12,496 bases of DNA, from positions 1 to 12,496 of the forward strand of contig WQXD01000079.1 in NCBI GenBank assembly GCA_009785015.1, written 5' to 3'. The notes under the pieces were generated by a model. It ran no database searches and was not told the origin of the DNA. It saw only the letters and a list, made by a program, of their open reading frames with translations. The DNA comes from Oscillospiraceae bacterium. Its GTDB lineage: Bacteria > Bacillota_A > Clostridia > Oscillospirales > WRJC01. Positions 1 to 11,456 of the stretch are shown here, one piece after another (position 1 is the stretch's first letter; each line of letters starts with the position of its first letter). Both the position numbers and the translations under genes were made by a program.

Positions 1-2593
1 AAGCCGCGGCCATCGGGTCGATAGCGGCGTCTGCCGGCTTGACGGCGGGTTCTATTTTGACGGGAACATTTCTGTCTGTATTCGAGCCGTCGCCGATCTG
101 CCCGTGCTCGTTATATCCCCAAACCCAGAGGCTGCCGTCGTCCGCCATCGCTATCGTGTGCTCGAAGCCCGCCGAAACTTCGACGAACTTCGTCCCGGCT
201 TTTATCTGCACCGGCGCGGTTTTGTCTTCTGTCGTGCCGTCGCCCAGCTGCCCGTACTTGTTCCACCCCCACGCCCAGAGGCTGCCGTCTTCCGCTATCG
301 CCGCCGTGTGATTGCTGCTCGCCGAAACCTGCGCGAATTTCATTTGGGCTTTTATTTGCGTCGGATTTTGTTTGCCTGCCGTCGTGCCGTCGCCGAGTTG
401 CCCGTACCAGTTATAACCCCATGCCCAGAGATTGCCTTCGCTGTCTATTGCCGCCGTGTAACTGCCGCCCGCCGAAACCTGCGCGAATTTCGTTTGGGCT
501 TTTATTTGCGTCGGATTTTGTTTGCCTGCCGTCGTGCCGTCGCCGAGCTGCCCGGACCCGTTATTCCCCCAGGCCCAGAGGTTGCCGCCGCTGTCGAGCG
601 CCACTGTGTGCGATCCGCCCGCCGAAATTTGGACGAACTTCGTTTTGGACGATATCTGCACCGGAGCGGTTTTGTCTGCCTTCGAACCGTCGCCCAGCTG
701 CCCGTGCAGGTTATTCCCCCAGGCCCAGAGGTTGCCGTCGCTGTCGAGCGCCGCCGTGTGCTGCCAGGTACCCGCAGAAACCTGCGTGAATTTCTTTCCG
801 GACGCTATTTGCACCGGCGCGTTTTTGTTTTCTGTCGTGCCGTCGCCGAGTTGCCCCATGTCGTTTCTTCCCCATGCCCAGAGGCTGCCCTCGCTGTCGA
901 GCGCCAGCGTGTGATATTCGCCCGCTGAAACCTGCGCGAACTTCGTACCGGATGCTGTCTGCACCGGCTCGTTTTTGTTTTTCGCCGTGCCGTCGCCCAG
1001 CTGTCCGTACCCGTTATACCCCCACGCCCAGAGGCTGCCGCCGCTGTCGAGCGCCGCCGTATGATAGCTGCCCGCGCCGATTGTATATTTGTAGTCGCCG
1101 CTCGTCAGAGGCAGCCCCACCGTGAGCTTGAAATCCAGCTTCGAAACTGCCCCGCCGTCAAATTCGAATGTGATCGTGTGAGTTTTCAATTCGAGCCCTT
1201 CGAGATATGCCGCCGTAAGCGTCACTTCGTCGCCGTTGACTTTGTAATCGGTGCCTTCCTTGAATGTGTGGGCGCCGCTTTTGATGCTTTTCAGATTGTG
1301 ACCGCCCGGATTCACCGTTACGAAGATATCTTCGCCGCTCCCTTTCACGTAGTCCCCCGCCGCAGGGTCGATGGCGGGATCCGTTTTCACCGCCGTCCAT
1401 TTCGCGTACAGCGTGAAGCCCGATTCCACCGGGTCGTCAAAACTATACCGGACGGTACACCCCGCATCCTCGTGCCACCCTTCGAATTCATAGCCCTCTT
1501 TTGCCGGGTCGGCCGGCTCTGCCGGCTTTTCACCCGATTTGACAACCTGAGCGCTCACATTGCCGCCGCCGTCGGTGTCAAATGTTATTGTATATTCCGC
1601 CAGCTTTACCGTGACGCCTTCTATCGGGAAAAAGCCGGTATTCGCGCCGTTGGAGTAGGCTATGCCCCCCTGGCCCCCGCCGAGTCCCCATACGGCCGAA
1701 CCGGCGGGGTCGGAAAATATATCATCCGCCGTTTTCGAGGTATATTCCTTGCCCGGCGCGCCCGGTTTCCACGCGCAGACGATGCCCGCGCCTTCGATTT
1801 TGAGTGTTGCGCCGCCGGCTGTGCTGATAACACCGCTGAGGGCCGTTCCCCATGCAAACACAAACCCTCCGCTCACAGTGACAGTGGAATCGCTGCCTTT
1901 GATATAAACGGCTTCCTTGTCCGCGGCGCTCACCACGCCCCCGCTTATATCGATGGCGCTGTTTTTTGAGTCGAAAAAATAGATGGTGGGATACGATTTG
2001 GATGCGGCGCTCACCGCACCGCCGCTTATATCCACGCTGCAGTTTGTCGTTGTGCCGGCAAAACTGATAGCCGGCCGGTCGTTGGAACTCACCGTGCCGC
2101 CGCTTACATTGACGGCTACATTTGTCCCGCTTTCGACGCGGACGGCGTTTTTGCCCGAGTCCGACGCGCGCACCGTGCCGCCGCATATATTTACCGTGGC
2201 GTTCACTCCGGAAACACTGATGACATTTCCCGTACTGCTGTTTGCGATATGACCGCCCTCCGCGACTTCAAACGTGCCGCCGCCGGTCAGCTCGATCAAA
2301 CTGTTGTTGCCGCTGAGCGGCGCCTCATAGATTGCTTTCCAAATGACCGTCACGCCGGCATCGATGTCCAACTTAAGCGGTTTTTTCGTGCCTGTGACCG
2401 TACCGGTCACCGTGACTGTACGGCTGCCGGTATCTGCAAAGATAATCAAGCTGTAATCCGGGTAAGCGGCGCGGATTGCGGCCGCCACTGCGTTTTCGTC
2501 ACCCGCGCTCACAGGCAAAGGGGACGCGAAAGTAAAAACCGACATGATCATCGCCGTTATCAGAACCGCCGCGATAAGTTTTTTTCTTTTCAT
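1..2593 (-). CDS. Secreted mosaic protein with beta-helix-like repeats, Flg_new repeat, X2 module and RCC1 repeats (C-terminus outside window)
   Basis: The reverse strand is open from an ATG at 2593 to the left edge (864 codons, no stop). GGAG lies 7 nt upstream of the ATG. Residues 1-30 are a signal peptide (MKRKK, hydrophobic core, cleavage likely after PVSA). Residues about 60-290 carry repeated VNVSGGTVSS / VDISGGAVSA units, resembling right-handed beta-helix surface repeats. Residues about 333-398 match the Listeria/Bacteroides (Flg_new) repeat (YTITFDTDGG ... GYEFEGWHEDAG ... FTLYAKW). Residues about 400-490 match the X2 Ig-like module (DPAIDPAAGDYVKG ... GTDYKVNGDEVTL ... HTITFEF). Seven RCC1 units (SLWAWGYNxxGQLGDGT) follow from about residue 501. 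The last visible residues (ADAAIDPMAA) resemble the start of the X2 module, so a second copy may lie beyond the edge. The cell-surface role is inferred from the signal peptide and modules; the ligand is unknown. Any anchoring signal would be outside the window. Confidence 0.9.
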   Translation of the reverse strand, partial: MKRKKLIAAVLITAMIMSVFTFASPLPVSAGDENAVAAAIRAAYPDYSLIIFADTGSRTVTVTGTVTGTKKPLKLDIDAGVTVIWKAIYEAPLSGNNSLIELTGGGTFEVAEGGHIANSSTGNVISVSGVNATVNICGGTVRASDSGKNAVRVESGTNVAVNVSGGTVSSNDRPAISFAGTTTNCSVDISGGAVSAASKSYPTIYFFDSKNSAIDISGGVVSAADKEAVYIKGSDSTVTVSGGFVFAWGTALSGVISTAGGATLKIEGAGIVCAWKPGAPGKEYTSKTADDIFSDPAGSAVWGLGGGQGGIAYSNGANTGFFPIEGVTVKLAEYTITFDTDGGGNVSAQVVKSGEKPAEPADPAKEGYEFEGWHEDAGCTVRYSFDDPVESGFTLYAKWTAVKTDPAIDPAAGDYVKGSGEDIFVTVNPGGHNLKSIKSGAHTFKEGTDYKVNGDEVTLTAAYLEGLELKTHTITFEFDGGAVSKLDFKLTVGLPLTSGDYKYTIGAGSYHTAALDSGGSLWAWGYNGYGQLGDGTAKNKNEPVQTASGTKFAQVSAGEYHTLALDSEGSLWAWGRNDMGQLGDGTTENKNAPVQIASGKKFTQVSAGTWQHTAALDSDGNLWAWGNNLHGQLGDGSKADKTAPVQISSKTKFVQISAGGSHTVALDSGGNLWAWGNNGSGQLGDGTTAGKQNPTQIKAQTKFAQVSAGGSYTAAIDSEGNLWAWGYNWYGQLGDGTTAGKQNPTQIKAQMKFAQVSASSNHTAAIAEDGSLWAWGWNKYGQLGDGTTEDKTAPVQIKAGTKFVEVSAGFEHTIAMADDGSLWVWGYNEHGQIGDGSNTDRNVPVKIEPAVKPADAAIDPMAAA
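50..1092 (-). repeat. Seven tandem RCC1-type repeats, 150-bp period
   Basis: The motif cccagag (coding for the LWAWG box) starts at 124, 274, 424, 574, 724, 877 and 1027. The spacing is exactly 150 bp except for one 153-bp step, caused by a one-residue insertion (GTWQHT instead of GxxHT). Each unit reads roughly xHTAALDSxGxLWAWGxNxxGQLGDGTxxxKxxPVQIxxxxKFxQVSAG. Seven blades match the classical RCC1 propeller. The units lie in frame inside the secreted protein. Confidence 0.93.
321..547 (-). repeat. Recently duplicated RCC1 unit (near-identical 77-bp stretches)
   Basis: Bases 321-397 and 471-547 are identical except for one substitution (342 versus 492) at an exact 150-bp offset. Both copies encode GTTAGKQNPTQIKAQ followed by T or M and then KFAQVSA. 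The other units are much more diverged in DNA. This indicates a recent unit duplication or gene conversion inside the array. Confidence 0.9.
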
Positions 2594-2777: not shown

Positions 2778-5522
2778 ATGGAGATAAACTGGTCGGAAAA
2801 AAATATAGCGGAACTCGAGCTCTATTTTTCGACCGATGCGAAAAAGGGGCTGACAAAAGAACAGCACAGAATATCCAAAGCTCAGTACGGGGAAAATATA
2901 ATAGACTCCGATCTGCTGACCCGGCAGAATTTTTACGGGCTGAAAAGAAAACACAGGAATATAAAGGCCATGCTTTCGGGTTCGGTGGGGATCGTAGGGG
3001 TGCTTTACGCGCTTACGCTCGCCATTCTCGCAGTCATGGATTTTGACGTGAACCTTTTTTTGTTTTTGCCTTTTTACGTGTTTTTGGCGGCCTTCTCGTT
3101 TTCCTTGAATATGCTGTCCGAAAAAAAATACGAATACCTGTACAAAATCGCGCGCCCGAAGGCATTGGTCATACGCGACAGCAAGAGAAAAAATGTGTTC
3201 ATCGAAAATATCGTGCCCGGGGACCTCATACTTTTGTCAGCGGGGGATATCGTGCCCGCGGATGCCAGAATTGTCTCGGCCGCGTATTTGTCCTGCGTGC
3301 ATATAACCGAAAGCGGAACACCGGTCAAAGAGGGGAAAACGGCGGAGATATTGAAGTACAACCCGGCCGAAATACCCGCGAACATCGTGTGCGCGGCGGA
3401 TGTGGTGGACTACGGCAGCGCCGCGGCCGTGGTGGTCGCCACGGGGGAAAACACGCACATAGCCAAAACGGCGGACGCCGAAATTTCAAAAAACACGGAT
3501 TTGAACGAGGATATAAACAAGGCCGACCCGGCGGCTGAAGACGAGTATTCGTTCATGCAAAAGCGCGCGCACACCATTTCCAAAATTTTCTTCCTTTTGT
3601 CGGTCGCGTTTTCGATGGTCATAATTTTTTCGGGAATAATGCAAAAAAGGGACACTCTCGCGGTGATTATGAGCTGCGCGGCGTTTTTGGCGGCTTGTTT
3701 TTCCGAGCAGATCCCGATCATCGCGGATTTCGCCGCGATCCACGGGATGCACAGATCGGCGAAATCCGGCATACTCATCAAAAAAACCGCGATAATAGAC
3801 GACATAAATGAAATAGACACGATAATCGCCAAAAAGACGGAATCGTTCACCCAAAACAAAATGCTGCTGAAAAAAGTGTCGGATCATGATCCCTCCGGCG
3901 GGAATCTGTACGAGATAGGCCATATCTTAAGCTGTATGGCGATGTGCGCGAATGTGGAGCAGCACCGCGGCGGCGCCAAACCCGTATATTCGGGCTCGGC
4001 GGTCGACGTGGCGGTGTTTGAGGCGCTGAACAGATGCGGGCTCGGCCATGAAGCGGTGACCAATACATACCAAAAAATCGGGAAAACCATGTACAACCCG
4101 AAAAGCGGGATAAAAAGCGCGTATATCATAAAGGACGGCAAAGCGAACCTCATATGCTTCGGCGAGGCCTTCAACATATTGAGCCGCTGCTCCGGGGTAA
4201 AAGGGAGCATGCTGGATAAAAGGAGCTTGGATTTCTACAAAGGCAAAATCGACGGGTTGTATAAAGAATACGATTTGGTTATGGCCGTGGCGACAAAGGA
4301 TTTCGCTTACGGCACAAGGGGCGCTTTGGAGGATGAAACGGATGGCAATCTGGATTTTCTGGGATTTGCGGGTTTTGCCGAGCCGAAGACGCGGGCGGTG
4401 TTTGAAAGCATAGACTATCTGAAAAAAAGCGGGGTGGCCCCCGTCATGATCGCGGGCGGGGAAGAGGCATACACCAAAAACGCGGCGCTCAAATTCGGGA
4501 TAATAAAAAACGCCGAAACGGCGCCTGTCATAGACGACGAATCGCTCTTCTCCATGGGCGACGATATGTTTTTTATCAATGCGGACAAATTCAGGCTGTT
4601 TGCCCCGATCGCCACGGAAAACAGGATAAAACTCATAAGGGCGCTCATATTCAAAAACAAGCGGCCCGCCGTGACGGTGAGTCACATCGAGGAAATCTCG
4701 CTGATGAACGAGCGCTGTGTGTCCTTTACTTCGGTGAGCGCCGAAACGGGCATTTTAAAAAACAAAGCCTCGGTGATAACCAAAAACCTGACAGTCTCCA
4801 CCATCGCAAAAACGCTCCAGAACGCCGTTTTGATCTACCGCAACATATGCGGAATCCTGCATTATCTGTCCATGCTGTTTTTTTCGCAGTATCTTCTGAT
4901 GCTGCTTCCGGTTCTGTCGGGGGGTGAATACATACTGAGCCCGCCGGGGATGATATGGGCCGGGATAGGGGCGGGATACCTGTTCGCGGTCTCGCTGTGC
5001 TTCAATGAAAACAACGGCGGCTGGCATACCGCGAGAAACAGGATAAAAAAATACAAAACCCCGAAAAAATACGAGGGGGCAGTGCTCAAAAACGGGTTCG
5101 TCTACGCGCTTCTGGCGTTCGCCTGCGCGGTTTCGTGTTTTTTCATATGCCTGACTCTCCGGGACCCCTCGGGAGCCGGCGCGTTTAAAAAATATCTGAG
5201 CGCGCCTTTTGCAATTGACCCGAGTATAAAATCCGCGCAGACGGCGGCGCTTGTCTCGTATCTGACTTTGTGCGCGGCGGTCGCGGCGCGGTATATAAAG
5301 GGCAGGCGGCCCTTTGATTTCGGGATATTCAAAAACAAGCTCTACGCCGCCGCACTGACGCTGAATCTGGGCGGTATCGCATTTGCGGTTTTTGTGCCGG
5401 CCGTCAGGGATTTTTTGGGCTTCGGGGAGATAAGCGCGGGGATGTTCGGCGTTTCGGCGGGTATGGGCGCGCTGTTTGCGGCAGTCACGGTTTTTTTCAA
5501 AAAAAATATATTGTCAAAATAA
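2778..5522 (+). CDS. P-type ATPase-like membrane protein with degenerate catalytic motifs (pseudo-ATPase)
   Basis: At 914 residues it has the length and order of a P2-type cation ATPase. A Cation_ATPase_N-like domain lies at about 1-45 (GLTKEQ, YGENII). The A-domain is at about 120-235, and the P/N domains lie between helices 4 and 5. Ten hydrophobic segments fall near 67-87, 91-113, 267-288, 294-320, 692-713, 721-742, 772-794, 819-840, 854-876 and 885-907. Every hallmark motif is altered: TGES reads TESG (177-180), PEGL reads SEQI (309-312), DKTGT reads KKTES (352-356, followed by intact TQNKM), KGAP reads FGEA (461-464), DPPR reads EPKT (535-538), TGD reads AGG (559-561), and GDGxxND reads SHIxxEI (635-640 region). 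With Lys352 replacing the phosphorylated Asp, classical ion pumping is not expected. The frame is intact and has its own promoter, so this does not look like decay. Inferred role: membrane scaffold, sensor or regulator; substrate unknown. No in-frame start lies upstream of ATG 2778 within the leader. The best SD-like sequence (GGTGGAG, 2748-2754) is 23 nt away. Confidence 0.88.
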   Translation: MEINWSEKNIAELELYFSTDAKKGLTKEQHRISKAQYGENIIDSDLLTRQNFYGLKRKHRNIKAMLSGSVGIVGVLYALTLAILAVMDFDVNLFLFLPFYVFLAAFSFSLNMLSEKKYEYLYKIARPKALVIRDSKRKNVFIENIVPGDLILLSAGDIVPADARIVSAAYLSCVHITESGTPVKEGKTAEILKYNPAEIPANIVCAADVVDYGSAAAVVVATGENTHIAKTADAEISKNTDLNEDINKADPAAEDEYSFMQKRAHTISKIFFLLSVAFSMVIIFSGIMQKRDTLAVIMSCAAFLAACFSEQIPIIADFAAIHGMHRSAKSGILIKKTAIIDDINEIDTIIAKKTESFTQNKMLLKKVSDHDPSGGNLYEIGHILSCMAMCANVEQHRGGAKPVYSGSAVDVAVFEALNRCGLGHEAVTNTYQKIGKTMYNPKSGIKSAYIIKDGKANLICFGEAFNILSRCSGVKGSMLDKRSLDFYKGKIDGLYKEYDLVMAVATKDFAYGTRGALEDETDGNLDFLGFAGFAEPKTRAVFESIDYLKKSGVAPVMIAGGEEAYTKNAALKFGIIKNAETAPVIDDESLFSMGDDMFFINADKFRLFAPIATENRIKLIRALIFKNKRPAVTVSHIEEISLMNERCVSFTSVSAETGILKNKASVITKNLTVSTIAKTLQNAVLIYRNICGILHYLSMLFFSQYLLMLLPVLSGGEYILSPPGMIWAGIGAGYLFAVSLCFNENNGGWHTARNRIKKYKTPKKYEGAVLKNGFVYALLAFACAVSCFFICLTLRDPSGAGAFKKYLSAPFAIDPSIKSAQTAALVSYLTLCAAVAARYIKGRRPFDFGIFKNKLYAAALTLNLGGIAFAVFVPAVRDFLGFGEISAGMFGVSAGMGALFAAVTVFFKKNILSK

Positions 5523-5534
5523 GGAATCAAAAAA

Positions 5535-6929
5535 ATGCATGAAAGAACAATCGCCGCGATAGCGACGCCCAAAGGGACCGGCGGTTTGGCGGTGATACGA
5601 ATATCGGGCCCCTTAGCTTTTGAGATCGGGGCGAAAATATTTTCGCCCGGCGGCAAAAAATACCGGCATTTTTCAAGTGTCCCCCCGAATACGGCGGTTT
5701 TCGGGGATATATCCGGTATCGACCGCGGTATAGCCGTGAAATTCGCCGCCCCGCATTCGTATACCGGCGAAAATACGGTGGAAATCTCGTGCCACGGAGG
5801 GCTGTATATATCAAATGCGGTGCTCGGCGCCTCCATCAAAGCCGGGGCGAGCCCGGCCATGGCGGGCGAGTTCACCAAGACCGCCTACCTCAACGGCAAA
5901 ATTTCGCTCACGGGGGCCGAGGCGGTGGGCAGGCTGATTTGCGCAGCCAACAAAACCGGGGCGAAGCTCGCCCATATGCAGGCAGAAGGCGCCCTGTCCA
6001 AAAAAATATCGGAGATATCGGAGAAGATAAAGGACATCATAAGCGAAGTCTACGTCTTCATAGATTACCCCGGGGAAGATTTGGCAGATGTGAGCTCACA
6101 GGCCATGTTTGAAAAATCGCTTGCGATAAAAGAAGAGCTCGAAGCTCTTAAAGCGACGTATGGCATCGGAAAAATCATCTCGGACGGGATAAACTGCGCC
6201 ATCGTGGGCAAGCCCAATTCGGGAAAATCCACCCTGCTCAACATGCTCTCAAAAGACGAAGTGGCGATAACCCACGAAACCCCCGGCACCACGCGCGATA
6301 TCGTCTTTTCGAGGGTAAACACGGGCGAATTTGTGCTGAATCTGCACGACACGGCGGGCATACGGGAAAATTACGGCGAGATAGAAGGCCTCGGCATAAA
6401 AAAAACCCTCGCCAAAATCGGCGAGTGCGAACTCATCATAGGGGTCTTCGATGCGTCCGGTCCGGAGGGCGGAGATTCGGAAATCCTCGGAATTTTAAAG
6501 CGCGAGAAAACAAACGGCAAAAAAATAATACCCGTGATAAACAAATGCGACCTGCCGAAGCGCGCAAATTTCGGCGGCGTCGATTTCGGGGCGGTTCCGC
6601 TTTTTATCTCGGCGAAGCAAAACAGCGTGCCGGATTCACAGCTCTCCGCCTTTGAGGCAATTGCGAAATACCTCGAAGATATATACAAGCCCGGCAGCTA
6701 CGGCCTTGATTCGGGGGAAATACTCACGGAGGAGCGCCAATACGCGGAAATCTGCGCCGCCTGCGAGAATCTGGCATCGGCGGTATCGGCGCTCGAATCC
6801 GGGTTCACCCCCGACGTCGCGGGCTTTGATCTGGAGCTCGCCGCCAAAAATTTAGACCGCTGCGATTCAAAGGATATATCCGCGGATATAGCGGACAGGA
6901 TATTTAGAAACTTCTGCGTGGGCAAATAG
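5535..6929 (+). CDS. mnmE: tRNA uridine-5-carboxymethylaminomethyl(34) synthesis GTPase MnmE
   Basis: At 464 residues it is normal length for MnmE. With MnmG this GTPase modifies the wobble U34 of several tRNAs (the cmnm5 group) using a folate one-carbon unit and NAD/FAD chemistry in the cytoplasm. The N-terminal folate-binding domain begins TIAAIATPKGTGGLAVIRISG and contains AGEFTKTAYLNGKISLTGAEAV-type sequence (110-131). The inserted G-domain has G1 GKPNSGKS (225-232), PGTTRD (250-255), DTAG (272-275), NKCD (336-339) and SAK (359-361). The C-terminus ends FCVGK, preserving the catalytic C-x-GK Cys (C461). AAGGA (5521-5525) overlaps the stop codon of the upstream pseudo-ATPase and lies 9 nt before the ATG, so the two genes are probably co-transcribed. 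No mnmG follows, unlike the common mnmE-mnmG arrangement. Confidence 0.97.
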   Translation: MHERTIAAIATPKGTGGLAVIRISGPLAFEIGAKIFSPGGKKYRHFSSVPPNTAVFGDISGIDRGIAVKFAAPHSYTGENTVEISCHGGLYISNAVLGASIKAGASPAMAGEFTKTAYLNGKISLTGAEAVGRLICAANKTGAKLAHMQAEGALSKKISEISEKIKDIISEVYVFIDYPGEDLADVSSQAMFEKSLAIKEELEALKATYGIGKIISDGINCAIVGKPNSGKSTLLNMLSKDEVAITHETPGTTRDIVFSRVNTGEFVLNLHDTAGIRENYGEIEGLGIKKTLAKIGECELIIGVFDASGPEGGDSEILGILKREKTNGKKIIPVINKCDLPKRANFGGVDFGAVPLFISAKQNSVPDSQLSAFEAIAKYLEDIYKPGSYGLDSGEILTEERQYAEICAACENLASAVSALESGFTPDVAGFDLELAAKNLDRCDSKDISADIADRIFRNFCVGK

Positions 6930-7350: not shown

Positions 7351-9072
7351 ATGCAAAATTATTTCGAAAACGCGAAAATCCAGACCACTTTAAAGGCCGC
7401 GGACGACCTGTCCCGCGAGCTTCCCGTCAGCGGCACGGCGGGCGAACCGAAGAAAAACAGACAGGTGGGGCTCTTCTATTTTACCTGGCTCGGCGAGCAC
7501 GACTACAACGACGGCGACCGGACGCGTTTCGCCCCGCCGTTGGACGTCACTAAAATTCTGGCCGCGAATCCTCGGGCGGGATACGACCCCTCGAGCGGCG
7601 TATGGGGAGGGGTGGGCGTGATGCACCACTGGGGCGAGCCGCTCTTCGGGTATTACCACTCGCGCGACGAGTGGGTGATGCGCCGGCATGTGGAAATGCT
7701 CACCCACGCCGACATAGATTTTTTGATTCTGGACGCCACCAACACCCTCATATATGAAGAAAACGCGAAAATGCTTCTGCGGTTGACGGATTTTTACAGG
7801 GATGAGGGCTGGAACACCCCGAAAGTGGCTTTTTACACGAATACCAGATCGGGCGAGACCGTGCAAAAACTGTATAAAGCGATATATGAGCCCGGCTATA
7901 TGGCAAATTCATGGTACCGCTTAGAGGGCAAACCGCTTGTGATCGCGGACGCTGCGGACTGCTCGCCCGAAATGCGCTCGTTTTTTACGATACGCGAGTC
8001 CCAGTGGCCTAACGAGCCCGCGAAGGCTTCAGGGGGTTGGCCCTGGATGGATTTCGAGTGCCCGCAGCGCGTGTTCTGCGACGCCGACGGCAATCCGGAG
8101 ATAATAAACGTCTCCGTGGCGCAGCACCCGCAGATATTCCACGGCGACTCGGCCATGTACGGGGAGACGGCGAACCGGGGCCGCTCGTACCACGGCGGCA
8201 GGGCGGATTTATTCGACAAGTCATACATATACGGCTTCAACTTCGCGGAACAGTGGGAGCGCGCGATAGAATGCGACACCCCGTTTGTGTTCGTGACCGG
8301 CTGGAACGAATGGATAATGGGGCGCTGGGCGGGAAGCCGCCCGGAGCGGCCGATCGGCTTTGTGGACTGCGCGAATGTGGAATATTCGCGCGACTGCGAA
8401 CCGATGAAGGGCGGCTATTTTGACAATTACTATATGCAGCTGATCTTCTATGTCAGAAAATACAAAGGCGTAAAGCCGATAACCGAAGCCGCAGAAATGA
8501 CGATCGACATTTCGGGGGACTTCTCTGTTTGGGACGCGGTGGAAACCGAGTACAGGGATTTTTCCAACGGGGCCTGTCCGAGGCATTGCAGCGGCTATGG
8601 GGGAATCTACGAGGACGACACCGGAAACAACGAGATAATTTTGTCCAAATGCGCCCACGACGAGACCAACATATATTTTTACGCGAAGGCCTCAAAAGAT
8701 ATAACGGACCCCCTGTACGCGGGCGGCACGTGGCTGAATCTGTATCTCAAAGTAAATACAGACGAACGCGAAAACGCCAAGACCGGATACGACTACATAG
8801 CCAACTATTTCCCCTTTTCAAAAAATATGACCTCGCTCGCCGAATTTGCAGACGGCGGATTCGAGATCATGTCGGATTTGGAATACAAATGCGCGGGAAG
8901 CGAGTTTATGATCTGCGTCCCGAAGGGGAAAATAGGGCTGGATGGCAAGGGGAGCTTTGAGCTGGAATTCAAATGGGCCGACGCGAAAACGCGGTTTTTG
9001 TCGGCTGAGGATTTCTACACCAAGGGCGACTGCGCGCCCATCGGCAGGCTCAACTTTGTCTTCAAGGCATAG
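7351..9072 (+). CDS. Cytoplasmic GH99/WbsX-like (beta/alpha)8 protein with C-terminal CBM9/DOMON-like domain
   Basis: 573 residues; AAGGAG lies 9 nt before the ATG. There is no signal peptide or membrane segment, so it should act in the cytoplasm. Residues about 36-375 look like a GH99/GH71/WbsX-type barrel: an early strand QVGLFYFTW (38-46), the strand DFLILDATN (123-131), and the hallmark TGWNEWIMG (316-324). In GH99 and WbsX-like proteins that motif is usually WNEWxEG with two carboxylates. Here the first Glu (E320) is kept and the second is Met (M323). Residues about 382-573 form a separate beta-rich domain with TIDISGDFSVWD, ETNIYFYAKAS and TWLNLYLKVNT segments, resembling CBM9-like or DOMON domains. 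Transcribed alone and convergent with the COG2122 gene. It may act on a glycan or glycoside; activity and substrate cannot be named. Family placement is from motif recognition only. Confidence 0.6.
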   Translation: MQNYFENAKIQTTLKAADDLSRELPVSGTAGEPKKNRQVGLFYFTWLGEHDYNDGDRTRFAPPLDVTKILAANPRAGYDPSSGVWGGVGVMHHWGEPLFGYYHSRDEWVMRRHVEMLTHADIDFLILDATNTLIYEENAKMLLRLTDFYRDEGWNTPKVAFYTNTRSGETVQKLYKAIYEPGYMANSWYRLEGKPLVIADAADCSPEMRSFFTIRESQWPNEPAKASGGWPWMDFECPQRVFCDADGNPEIINVSVAQHPQIFHGDSAMYGETANRGRSYHGGRADLFDKSYIYGFNFAEQWERAIECDTPFVFVTGWNEWIMGRWAGSRPERPIGFVDCANVEYSRDCEPMKGGYFDNYYMQLIFYVRKYKGVKPITEAAEMTIDISGDFSVWDAVETEYRDFSNGACPRHCSGYGGIYEDDTGNNEIILSKCAHDETNIYFYAKASKDITDPLYAGGTWLNLYLKVNTDERENAKTGYDYIANYFPFSKNMTSLAEFADGGFEIMSDLEYKCAGSEFMICVPKGKIGLDGKGSFELEFKWADAKTRFLSAEDFYTKGDCAPIGRLNFVFKA

Positions 9073-9073
9073 C

Positions 9074-9092
9074 GGCGGGATCAGAATCCGCC
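9074..9092 (+). terminator. Weak hairpin between convergent genes
   Basis: ggcggg (9074-9079) pairs with tccgcc (9087-9092) including one G-T pair, followed by only TTT. It begins just after the stop of the GH99-like gene and overlaps the 3' end of the COG2122 gene. It may be a weak terminator for the plus-strand gene. No T-tract exists on the minus side. Confidence 0.3.
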
Positions 9093-9833
9093 TTTGCCGG
9101 CTGCCAGCTTCACATCGCCCCTCACGCCCAAATGATCCCCGATTATAATCACAGCGCCGGAAACCGCCTTGATTTTTGCCGCGAAATCCAAGGCTTTTTC
9201 CAAGTCGTCCGCGCTTTGCACGATGTTTCCGCAAGCTGTCGCGACTGCGTCGGCCAGGGCGGCCGACTTTGAAAGTATGACCACCGCGTCGGTTTTCCCG
9301 AAGCTCAGCGAAGGGCCCACCTTTCCCGAAGAGGTGCATATGCCGAGCGGCGTCTGTTCCGGCGCGATCTCGATCGCCACGCGGCCGGACAAAGCGGACT
9401 CGCCGGCGAAGATCCCCACTCGCCTTGCCGAGTTTGATTTCATGTATATATCCCCGCCGTTTTCCACTATCACTTCCCGGCAGAACACGGCCAGCGCCCC
9501 GCCCACCGCCTCGGCTATCGCGCCCGCCACGGCGGCCATCGGCCCCACATTCGCGGCAAAGGCGGCCTCCGCCATGACCCCGGCGATTTTCGGGCAGCCG
9601 GGAAGCATCTCGCGGGGGGTCAGAGAGGTCAGAAACCCCGGGTCCCTTTTTATATATTCCTCCAAGGGGCGGCGGACGCTTTTGATTATATCTTTGGCGC
9701 GGGAAACGAGCTCCGGGGTATACTGGTCGCTTTTGACCGCTATGTCGAGGTCCGTCTCGGCCACGGCGGCATTAAAATGCGTCATATCCGCCTGACGGCA
9801 GCCGCGCCTGTAAAAACGGTGCGTATACTCCAA
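9081..9833 (-). CDS. UPF0280 / COG2122 family protein (ApbE-like fold), homocysteine-cluster member
   Basis: 250 residues starting at TTG 9833, one base after the stop of the ferredoxin gene, with GGAGGT (9850-9845) 11 nt upstream. This start keeps the family's HRFYRR N-terminus, which the next Met (residue 17) would remove. Family signatures are ETDLDIAV (26-33), PxLxxYIxxxPxFxxSLTP-like sequence (56-73), VGPMAAVAGAIAEAVG (96-111), VENGGDIYM (123-131) and CTSSGKVGPSLSFGK (166-180). Most relatives I know read CTSSGTVGHS at the last site, so K171 and P174 may be unusual. The exact function of COG2122 is not established. Its gene neighbours in methanogens and here are COG1900 and the NIL-ferredoxin, implying a role in the same sulfur pathway. 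Last gene of the minus-strand transcript. Confidence 0.88.
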   Translation of the reverse strand: MEYTHRFYRRGCRQADMTHFNAAVAETDLDIAVKSDQYTPELVSRAKDIIKSVRRPLEEYIKRDPGFLTSLTPREMLPGCPKIAGVMAEAAFAANVGPMAAVAGAIAEAVGGALAVFCREVIVENGGDIYMKSNSARRVGIFAGESALSGRVAIEIAPEQTPLGICTSSGKVGPSLSFGKTDAVVILSKSAALADAVATACGNIVQSADDLEKALDFAAKIKAVSGAVIIIGDHLGVRGDVKLAAGKGGF

Positions 9834-9834
9834 G

Positions 9835-10245
9835 TTACAGCCGCACCTCCATGGCCTTGGCCGGGCACAGCTTGACGCACAGCTGACATACTATGCAGTT
9901 GTTTTCGTCAAAGCACACTTCCATGGACGGGCGCTCGAGATACAGGGCCCCAGTCGGGCAGACGCCCGTGCAGGCGCCGCACATGAAGCATTTATCCTCA
10001 TTGCGCCTTATCTCCCGGTCAAAACTCTGGACTACGACTCCCGACTGGCGCAGATAATCCATCCCTTCGCAATATCGCTGCCCGCCGACTTCCAGAACCA
10101 TGATGCCCTGCTTCTGGGGGTTGACGTTGGCCTGGACGATATTGACCACCAAGTCGTAATTCTTGACCAAATTGTAGACTATCGGTTTGGCCGATATATC
10201 GGTGCCGAACCGCAAAACGATTTTTTTCGACTCCACAACGCTCAT
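9835..10245 (-). CDS. NIL domain plus two [4Fe-4S] ferredoxin protein
   Basis: 136 residues. The N-terminal about 75 residues form a NIL-type domain (KIVLRFG, PIVYNLVKNYDLVVNIVQAN, GIMVLEVGG), as at the end of methionine ABC transporter ATPases. The C-terminal half has two complete CxxCxxCxxxCP clusters: C86, C89, C92, C96 and C117, C120, C123, C127. In Methanosarcina an equivalent protein (MA1822) works with the COG1900 protein MA1821 to make homocysteine from aspartate semialdehyde and sulfide, presumably supplying electrons or handling sulfur. The ATG overlaps the upstream stop (ATGA). AAAGGGG (10246-10252) abuts this ATG, so GTG 10236 (codon 4), 9 nt after the SD, is an alternative start. 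Translational coupling is likely. Cytoplasmic. Confidence 0.92.
   Translation of the reverse strand: MSVVESKKIVLRFGTDISAKPIVYNLVKNYDLVVNIVQANVNPQKQGIMVLEVGGQRYCEGMDYLRQSGVVVQSFDREIRRNEDKCFMCGACTGVCPTGALYLERPSMEVCFDENNCIVCQLCVKLCPAKAMEVRL
9845..9850 (-). promoter_or_regulatory. SD that fixes the TTG start of COG2122
   Basis: Reverse-strand GGAGGT lies inside the last codons of the ferredoxin gene, 11 nt before TTG 9833. It is the only strong SD near the 5' end of the COG2122 frame, so translation probably starts at TTG. Confidence 0.7.
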
Positions 10246-11456
10246 CCCCTTTCTTCAGTCTTTTCTGTTTTTTCATTCAAAAAGTTCAGCTTTACGTTAT
10301 CTTCCGGGGAGGGGAGCATTTTCACGGGCTGCGTCAGCAAGAAACAATTTTCCGAAATCCAGCTTTTGAGCGTTGCGGCTATCTCTCTGGCCTTCGGCAT
10401 ACTGGACAGCGGAGCGGTCCGCACCTTTTTGCCGTTTACCGTTATTTCGCCGCTTTTTAAATCGGCATAGCTGACCAGGCACAGCACCTCGCCCGATCTG
10501 GACGGATACGCGCTCGAGTAATCCACCACCGGCGCGTACAGGTCCCTGTCGCCGAGTGCGGCGTAATACGCGCTTTCCTCGTTCAGTATGGGGATCGGTA
10601 CGCCCACGCCCACCGCAAGCGAGGCGCCGTACCCGAGGATGCTGAGCCCCAAAAGCCATTTCGGGCTCATCTGCTTGAGATCTCCGATCAGCGCGAGCGT
10701 GCCCCCGGCGCTGCCCATCTGCCCTCCGTCCGTTTCGAGCATGGAGGGCGAGTGCTGGGTCCCGTTCCAGGCCACATATCCCACCCCCCCGCCGAGGAAA
10801 ATTTTCGTCCCGACGCCGATCGCCTTGAAGTGCGGGTCCTTGAACAGCGGGCTCAGCTGCCCCGAGGTCGAGTAGTTGGCGTTTTCCATGTTCGGCCTGA
10901 GCATGCCCATGTATGTGTAAATCGTCCGCTCGGACAGATTCACGGCGCAGTTGTAGTTCTGGTAGGCGTTGCGCGGGTTGAAAAGCACGGCCTCGTTGAT
11001 TTCATCCAAGGTTATCGTCGTCTCTATGCTCCGGCGCGGATAGCAGTCGGTTCCGTAGCTCTGCGCCCTGAGCCTGACCGGGCGCCTTGCGGCCAGGTCT
11101 TCGATCACATGGCCGCCGCCGTAGCGGAATTCGCCCGGATGATTTTTGTTGAGCGGGTCGTCGTCGGGGACCTCCGTGGCCCCTATGTAGGCGTCGACGG
11201 CCGCGATTCCGGCGTATGCCGAGACCCCGTTGAGCCAGACCTTCTGCATCCTCATTCTGGGCGAAGTGTGGCCGAAGCTCAGAAAGGCGCCCGACGAACA
11301 CATGGGCGCGAAAGTGCCGGTGGTCACCACGTCCACCTCCGCAGCCGCTTTGGATACTCCTTTTTGTCCGGCCAATTCCGAGAGTTCCTCGGCGGTCACG
11401 ATGACCGCTTTGCCGGTTTTTATCTTTTCGTTTATTTCGTCATATGTTTTTTCCAT
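10242..11456 (-). CDS. COG1900 / DUF39 homocysteine biosynthesis protein (aspartate semialdehyde sulfurtransferase-like)
   Basis: 404 residues matching the DUF39/COG1900 family: TTGTFAPMCSSGAFLSFGH (45-63), VWLNGVSAYAGIAAVDAYIG (73-92), YGGGHVIEDL (112-121) and YGTDCYPRR (134-142). In Methanosarcina acetivorans the homologue MA1821 with MA1822 is required for homocysteine synthesis independent of the acyl-homoserine routes. C53 and C138 sit in the two most family-like segments and are candidates for sulfur-carrying cysteines. The chain ends shortly after the DUF39 region with a charged tail (NEKTEKTEERG), so it lacks the C-terminal CBS pair found in some homologues. The stop overlaps the next start by 4 nt. 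No convincing SD lies close to ATG 11456: AGGGAAA is about 18 nt upstream, and the frame is closed by TAG at 11481-11483. Translation may depend on the upstream gene, which ends 28 nt before. Confidence 0.92.
   Translation of the reverse strand: MEKTYDEINEKIKTGKAVIVTAEELSELAGQKGVSKAAAEVDVVTTGTFAPMCSSGAFLSFGHTSPRMRMQKVWLNGVSAYAGIAAVDAYIGATEVPDDDPLNKNHPGEFRYGGGHVIEDLAARRPVRLRAQSYGTDCYPRRSIETTITLDEINEAVLFNPRNAYQNYNCAVNLSERTIYTYMGMLRPNMENANYSTSGQLSPLFKDPHFKAIGVGTKIFLGGGVGYVAWNGTQHSPSMLETDGGQMGSAGGTLALIGDLKQMSPKWLLGLSILGYGASLAVGVGVPIPILNEESAYYAALGDRDLYAPVVDYSSAYPSRSGEVLCLVSYADLKSGEITVNGKKVRTAPLSSMPKAREIAATLKSWISENCFLLTQPVKMLPSPEDNVKLNFLNEKTEKTEERG

Follow-up and report, generated by a model that had tools for sequence, protein, structure and literature searches.

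A selected P2-type pseudo-pump with replaced catalytic motifs in a clostridial lineage

We analysed a 12,496-nucleotide stretch of DNA from an Oscillospiraceae bacterium (the window; contig WQXD01000079.1 of assembly GCA_009785015.1) and found at 2778..5522, on the forward strand, a gene for what we are highly confident is a selected P2-type pseudo-pump: a protein with the fold of a P-type ATPase in which the catalytic motifs have been replaced. P-type ATPases are textbook engines, and their conserved aspartate gives the family its name. The open reading frame starts with ATG and comprises 914 codons with zero internal stops, at the very coordinates given by an earlier note made from the letters of this DNA. 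As for what the protein does, we see about even chances that it is a vertically inherited pseudo-pump of a clostridial lineage, now a non-hydrolysing membrane sensor or scaffold.

In place of the canonical TGES, PEGLP, DKTGT, KGA, DPPR, TGD and GDGVND, the window protein reads SGTP (residues 179-182), SEQIP, KKTES, FGE, EPKT, AGG and VSHIEE, respectively. The earlier note had seen lysine 352 at the place of the phosphorylated aspartate, which is correct (KKTESFTQNKM at 352-362), and had remarked that the flanks persist, as they do both after this motif (TQNKM) and after the fourth membrane helix, M4 (IPIIADFAAIHGMHRSAKSGI, starting at 312). AGG stands for TGD, as described, at 559-561. The proposed replacement of GDG by SHI was right as to the loss of the motif but one column off: GDG corresponds to V634-S635-H636 and the last aspartate of the motif to E639. 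Likewise, the claim that every catalytic motif is altered holds for the replaced motifs listed above but not for K353, the GDxxPAD of the actuator (A) domain, E310 of M4 and R616 (SERCA K684 column), all of which are kept.

The window protein belongs to a family of 38 protein clusters, its own included, of which 30 came from a first search and 8 were added by a second; with the 29 other clusters of the first search it shares 34-87% identity. Because each search scored 7997 candidates and the first gave the best 120 of 183 matches, the family comprises at least these 38 clusters. A gap in score sets it off from the canonical pumps (from E 2e-137 to 4e-44 in the first search, and from 1e-93 to 1e-78 in the second), which come next among the matches at 19-28% identity and carry, in the rows listed, the haloacid dehalogenase (HAD) hydrolase domain PF00702. 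This domain gave no match in a Pfam scan of the window protein, none across the 38 clusters in a precomputed listing, and none in five family members scanned at E up to 10; it was present in the canonical control P0031. In a tree with 51 canonical rows, whose root is not known and in which the sister pump is not resolved, the 37 family rows (P0128 left out) lie on one side of a branch with a long stem and a Shimodaira-Hasegawa-like approximate likelihood ratio test (SH-aLRT) value of 100.

To describe the replacements at family level, we counted residues at key columns in 37 family rows (the 389-residue fragment P0128 left out) and 96 canonical rows, naming columns by SERCA residue numbers. 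The former phosphorylation motif (residues 352-356; 3831..3845, forward strand) has at the D351 column lysine in 31 family rows, arginine in 3, and glutamine, serine and alanine in one each, compared to aspartate in all 96 canonical rows; no aspartate stands there in any of the 38 clusters. In the former Mg2+ motif (residues 634-639; 4677..4694, forward strand), the last aspartate of GDGxND (D707 column) is glutamate in 37/37 family rows and aspartate in 95/96 canonical ones, while the D703 column holds N in 21 family rows, S in 11, D in 3, and A and G in one each. The TGD aspartate (D627 column) is never aspartate in the family, and the threonine of TGES is found in none of its rows. Plain-string searches for DKTGT, TGES and GDGxND gave 0/37 each in the family and 95, 92 and 93 of 96 in the canonical set, so that no close orthologue with intact motifs was found.

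The ATP site of the nucleotide-binding (N) domain (4092..4166, forward strand, spanning Y439 and F461-G-E463) tells the same story. Among the 35 family rows present, the F487 column is tyrosine in 32 (canonical F 94/96; Y439 here) and the K515 column is phenylalanine in 32 and leucine in 3 (canonical K 93/96; the F461-G-E463 site here). R560, the arginine of the LRxLA block, is L500 in the window protein and mostly leucine in the family; at each of these three columns the canonical residue is found in 0/35 rows. Overall, 25 columns are fixed to different residues in the two groups (cut-offs 85% for the family, 80% for the canonical set), and many of these columns belong to the former active sites or adjoin them. 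Decay gives scatter, whereas a good number of the replacements seen here are conserved, and since the other 37 clusters show similar ones they are not due to chance. As the relatives keep much the same replacements, the family has probably taken on a new membrane job.

The cation-binding sites differ too. In M4 (residues 310-317; 3705..3728, forward strand), the E309 column (E310 here) remains acidic throughout, with E in 31 and D in 6 of the 37 family rows, and the T316 column (D317 here) is aspartate in 37/37 family rows but threonine in 90/96 canonical ones. Further along, between 4878 and 4976 on the forward strand, the P2A ligand set of M5 and M6 (N768/E771 and N796/T799/D800) is replaced by F701, Q704, G729, A732 and G733. 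The N768 column is phenylalanine in 36/37 family rows and the E771 column glutamine in 37/37 (and also in 5/96 canonical rows); in M6, glycine occupies the N796 column in 29 and the D800 column in all of the 36 family rows present.

We weighed whether the protein could still be an ATP-driven pump whose catalytic residues have been displaced, for example to another phosphorylated residue. The fold is kept, Y439 could still stack on the base, the lysine after the former phosphorylated aspartate (K353) persists in 35/37 family rows, R or K stands at the K684 column in 32/37, and the D703 column has already been seen to retain aspartate in a few. On the other hand, SERCA F487, K515, R560, D351, D627, D703, D707 and TGES are all altered at family level and two members are wholly without an N domain. 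An active pump was rejected on the motif counts, and we give it a very small probability; the protein presumably forms no phosphoenzyme.

The earlier note's claim of a full P-type fold with ten helices turned out to be right. Pfam gave matches above cut-off for PF00122 (E1-E2_ATPase, residues 125-329) and PF00689 (Cation_ATPase_C). An AlphaFold2 model built on 134 rows (38 family and 96 canonical) reached a mean predicted local distance difference test (pLDDT) of 90.8 and a predicted template modelling score (pTM) of 0.87 and contains the A, phosphorylation (P) and N domains and ten membrane helices, with the caveat that such a canonical-rich alignment biases the model towards the canonical fold; it replaced an earlier model from the 30 family rows only, which had a pLDDT of 67.5 and a poor A domain. 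Foldseek aligned the 134-row model over its whole length with hSPCA1 in its CaE1 form (8iwp; template modelling scores of 0.79/0.80, 18% identity), and structural alignments with P2A pumps gave 14-19% identity. The whole-length model and these matches together, within the caveat above, establish the P-type fold. Of the proteins with solved structures, those closest in sequence are LMCA1, a Ca2+-ATPase of Listeria and the best Protein Data Bank (PDB) match of the family profile at 229 bits, and SPCA1. Pump models of NCBIfam scored far below their cut-offs: the best, TIGR01522, gave 142 bits against 798.3, and TIGR01116 gave 82.8 bits against 703.4, short of the score of a P2A Ca2+-ATPase. By descent and by fold (A, P and N domains and a ten-helix P2 membrane domain) the protein is nonetheless a member of the superfamily. 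Compared with the P2A Ca2+-ATPases (Listeria LMCA1/lmo0841, SPCA1 and SERCA), it shares the fold, domain order, ten helices, GDxxPAD and the M4 glutamate, but has replaced the residues for phosphorylation, dephosphorylation, Mg2+, ATP and the M5/M6 ligands.

Purifying selection on the pseudo-pump was clear. Against its nearest relative with DNA available, from the locus of Oscillospiraceae bacterium isolate Nt197P3bin116 (L001, a metagenome-assembled genome (MAG) from a termite gut), the window protein is 62.1% identical, with 0.236 non-synonymous differences per non-synonymous site (pN) and 0.706 synonymous ones per synonymous site (pS), a pN/pS of 0.33; MnmE, encoded next to it, is 68.2% identical between the same two loci. 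Synonymous divergence (dS) was near saturation in all six pairs, and for this reason we do not claim an exact ratio of non-synonymous to synonymous rates (dN/dS), although a value near 1 was not seen. When we simulated neutral drift of the window reading frame, 2, 1 and 0 of 100 runs were free of stops at 0.05, 0.1 and 0.25 substitutions/site, with a mean of 12 stops at the last of these, in agreement with the earlier argument that random decay should leave stops. With the catalytic motifs lost and the fold under purifying selection, the protein is a pseudoenzyme. The absence of intact close orthologues among the matches and the pN/pS value together give good support to the proposal of a selected pseudoenzyme forming its own family derived from P-type ATPases; scaffold, ion sensor and regulator, the roles which the earlier note suggested for it, are candidates.

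The opposite view, a pseudogene in recent or ongoing decay, could appeal to the lost catalytic motifs and to a faster pace of evolution: between two genomes, G001 and G002, the pseudo-pump is 54% identical, MnmE 71% and a canonical pump orthologue 76%, so that the pseudo-pump evolves fastest. But the frame has no stops or frameshifts, like replacements are found in the other 37 clusters, and pN/pS is 0.33, while simulated drift filled the frame with stops. Recent decay was discarded on the selection figures and the simulation, which leave it next to no probability. A sequencing error or frameshift was likewise dismissed, as family members occur on other contigs.

The distribution of conservation points to where the function may lie. 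We compared mean pairwise identity over 16 segments in 32 of the 37 family rows (P0009, P0017, P0021, P0028 and P0029 left out) and in the 96 canonical rows. The N-terminal cytosolic segment (residues 1-60, INWSEKN..ELELFFSTD..GL ... QNFYGL; 2778..2957, forward strand) comes top of the 16 with 0.595, compared to 0.318 in canonical pumps. Among blocks of 12 residues, conservation is highest in LSAGDIVPADAR of the A domain, in LKNKASVITKNL, which lies in the hinge before M5, and in KNVFIENIVPGD, from the start of the A domain; the A-domain block 153-164 ranks first. This pseudo-actuator domain (residues 125-256; 3150..3545, forward strand) has lost TGES but keeps GDIVPAD, and GDxxPAD is kept in 35/37 family rows. 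Selection is tightest in the N-terminal segment, in the core of the A domain and in the hinge of the P domain that precedes M5, together with E310 and D317 of M4 and Q704 of M5. Because conservation in the cytosolic parts equals or exceeds that in the membrane core, a sensor or scaffold role fits best, and we put its likelihood at slightly under one half.

Two family members with 75% mutual identity, P0028 and P0029, have gone further: query residues ~360-611 are missing from both, and with them the N domain and a large part of the P domain, while the N-terminal segment, the A domain, the hinge before M5 and all the helices remain. One of the two sits in a third genome, G003, where its frame is open; P0029, of 665 residues, is encoded at 8985-10982 on the reverse strand of locus L097. 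These motorless members suggest that the ATP-driven motor is dispensable, and they make the part that carries the function testable. They also fit a passive conduit, in which a motor-free pump body would act as a channel, uniporter or lipid scramblase, its M4 carboxylates lining an ATP-independent path. The ten-helix bundle with acidic M4 positions in 37/37 rows is consistent with such a path and, weakly, so is the rank of the palytoxin-opened Na,K-ATPase channel (9vj0), fifth in Foldseek amid many E1 and E2 pump forms. However, the changes N768 to F, N796 to G and D800 to G look like the filling of a site rather than its opening, and a plain channel would not need a strongly conserved A domain and N-terminal segment. 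We consider a conduit unlikely, at somewhat better than one chance in five.

How a sensor or scaffold might work can be outlined from the alignment. The ancestor would have been a Ca2+-ATPase-like pump. In sequence, its descendant no longer has the N-domain residues that bind ATP, the P-domain residues that serve phosphorylation and hold Mg2+, the dephosphorylating residues of the A domain or the usual cation ligands of M5 and M6, and most of these have given way to conserved residues specific to the family. The lysine at the phosphorylation site and the invariant glutamate at the Mg2+ site may close the old active site electrostatically, F701 and the M6 glycines may pack the old cation cavity, and E310, D317 and Q704 may form a new polar core between M4 and M5. 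This core could bind a proton, a monovalent cation or a lipid head group, upon which the helices would shift, and the pseudo-actuator and N-terminal segment would relay this state to another protein, which might be a canonical pump or a protein of the envelope or of tRNA modification. The more specific picture of a cation pump remade as a non-hydrolysing device (an active site closed by Lys and Glu, a cation site remade from the M4 Glu/Asp pair and the M5 Gln, and, in one branch, a motor deleted so that the A domain and membrane core stand alone as a sensor or gate) is tentative, and to our minds about one chance in three.

The pseudo-pump was found in 3/3 examined genomes (G001, G002 and G003) of one GTDB family, and its named relatives are Oscillospiraceae MAGs. 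An even draw across the order gave true members in 3/394 genomes, the tally of 11 in that draw including 8 genomes with canonical pumps only (272-282 bits; DKTGT and GDGxND intact). A draw across the class gave 1/391 genomes at E 1e-90, G001 itself, and relatives of G003 gave 3/394 at E 1e-100. Spread on known plasmids was rejected: six plasmid records were found at E 1e-30, and the five listed are only 22-25% identical, three being annotated as P-type ATPases and two unannotated. For the L001 locus the termite-gut origin is read from the isolate name: in PMC7024585, Nt197 denotes the termite Neocapritermes taracua, and P3 denotes a compartment of the gut.

Gene order was read at four loci (the window, L001, L096 and L097), which represent 4 of the 38 clusters. 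In 4/4 the gene mnmE (tRNA uridine modification GTPase; 5535..6929 on the forward strand of the window, TIGR00450 at 305 bits with a cut-off of 252.6) lies downstream of the pseudo-pump in the same direction: the gap is 12 bases in the window, ~1.7 kb in L001 and ~1.4 kb in L097, and in L096 the two genes adjoin. This constancy shows that the locus is of common descent, and a functional link between pseudo-pump and MnmE is possible. A second membrane protein, of ~230-240 residues and seemingly with a single helix, is encoded at L096 12346-13074 and L097 12846-13538 (45% identical between the two); its gene is divergent from that of the pseudo-pump, which it adjoins in L096 and lies close to in L097.

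Genomes G001, G002 and G003 each also encode P-type ATPases in which DKTGT is intact, and one of these is shared by all three at 68-76% identity. This would suit a regulatory role in which the protein joins its cell's own canonical P2 pump as a subunit and modulates it dominantly; MgtA dimers are solved P-type dimers whose fold is similar. Nevertheless, no canonical pump gene adjoins the pseudo-pump in the window, L001, L096 or L097 stretches, and P2A pumps are mostly monomeric in action. We judge a regulatory subunit improbable, at about one chance in five.

Several observations weigh against a sensor or scaffold. The N domain is conserved in most members (0.467, versus 0.347 in canonical pumps) although two lack it; being of no use for ATP in a pseudo-pump, it must have some function. 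A reading of complete loss of the motifs is countered by the D703 column, still aspartate in 3/37 rows, and by some altered sites, for instance the TGES loop, which vary freely instead of being fixed. The link to mnmE may be just vertical inheritance in a small lineage, and the ~230-240-residue membrane gene of L096 and L097 was found on another contig in G001, which leaves no constant partner gene other than mnmE.

P-type-fold proteins without the full catalytic motifs are already known in eukaryotes, and human TMEM94 (ERMA) is a disputed precedent. Its fold is P-type-like, comprising ten helices and A-, P- and N-like domains, but TGES is missing. Neither ATPase activity, nor nucleotide at the proposed site, nor Mg2+ binding in detergent was detected, though it has a micromolar affinity for adenosine 5'-(β,γ-methylene)triphosphate (AMPPCP) by microscale thermophoresis (PMC12134183). 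It has also been argued to be an active Mg2+ ATPase with the motifs DKQGI and GSSANL, in what is accessible of PMC13322241. TMEM94 by that account keeps the aspartate (DKQGI, with GSSANL for GDGVND), whereas the pseudo-pump family mostly has lysine or arginine there. It was not among the 60 of 77 PDB chains listed for the family profile, nor among the 50 rows of the structural alignments or the Foldseek matches listed, no direct comparison having been made; an independent origin is likely. As far as the available text of PMC6592433 goes, Plasmodium GC-beta contains a degenerate P4-ATPase domain; it is eukaryotic, P4-type and guanylate cyclase-linked, whereas the window protein is a stand-alone bacterial P2-type protein. 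Loss of catalytic motifs with the fold kept is likewise described for pseudoenzyme families such as bacterial pseudokinases, in the portions available of PMC12599244 and PMC10211241. The words 'ATPase', 'P-type' and 'pump' are absent from the main text of the pseudoenzyme review PMC10211241, and the accessible part of the review PMC10654040 has nothing on inactive members. Among the open-access papers searched we found none on a bacterial stand-alone pseudo-pump family, and none combining 'P-type ATPase' with 'pseudoenzyme' or 'pseudo-ATPase'. If our reading is true, a bacterial clade that has lost the aspartate and the other motifs and, in two cases, most of the motor, while selection maintains its membrane body, would show that the P-type fold is useful without ATP. 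It would also offer a simple natural parallel to human TMEM94, on which opinion is divided between pump and pseudo-pump. The source bacterium itself is kin of gut clostridia.

Other genes were seen around these loci. In L097, the gene for P0029 is followed by a C39-peptidase-like and a PIN-domain-like reading frame and then by mnmE, and in L001 a sigma-factor-like reading frame and an adjoining membrane one lie between pseudo-pump and mnmE (12967-14327, reverse strand), all labelled by eye; a relative of the L001 membrane frame is found at L096 103-648, ~7.4 kb beyond mnmE. In the window, a large protein cut at the edge (2-2593, reverse strand) carries RCC1 repeats, a Listeria-Bacteroides repeat and CBM_X2, and a 573-residue protein (7351-9072, forward strand) has weak similarity to GH99 (24.4 bits, below the cut-off of 33) and no NCBIfam match. 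Lastly, three genes at 9081-11456 on the reverse strand encode an HcyBio/DUF39 protein (505 bits), a protein with NIL and two 4Fe-4S ferredoxin domains, and a PRK04334-type protein, a set which we take to resemble that for homocysteine biosynthesis in methanogens, here in a presumed clostridium.

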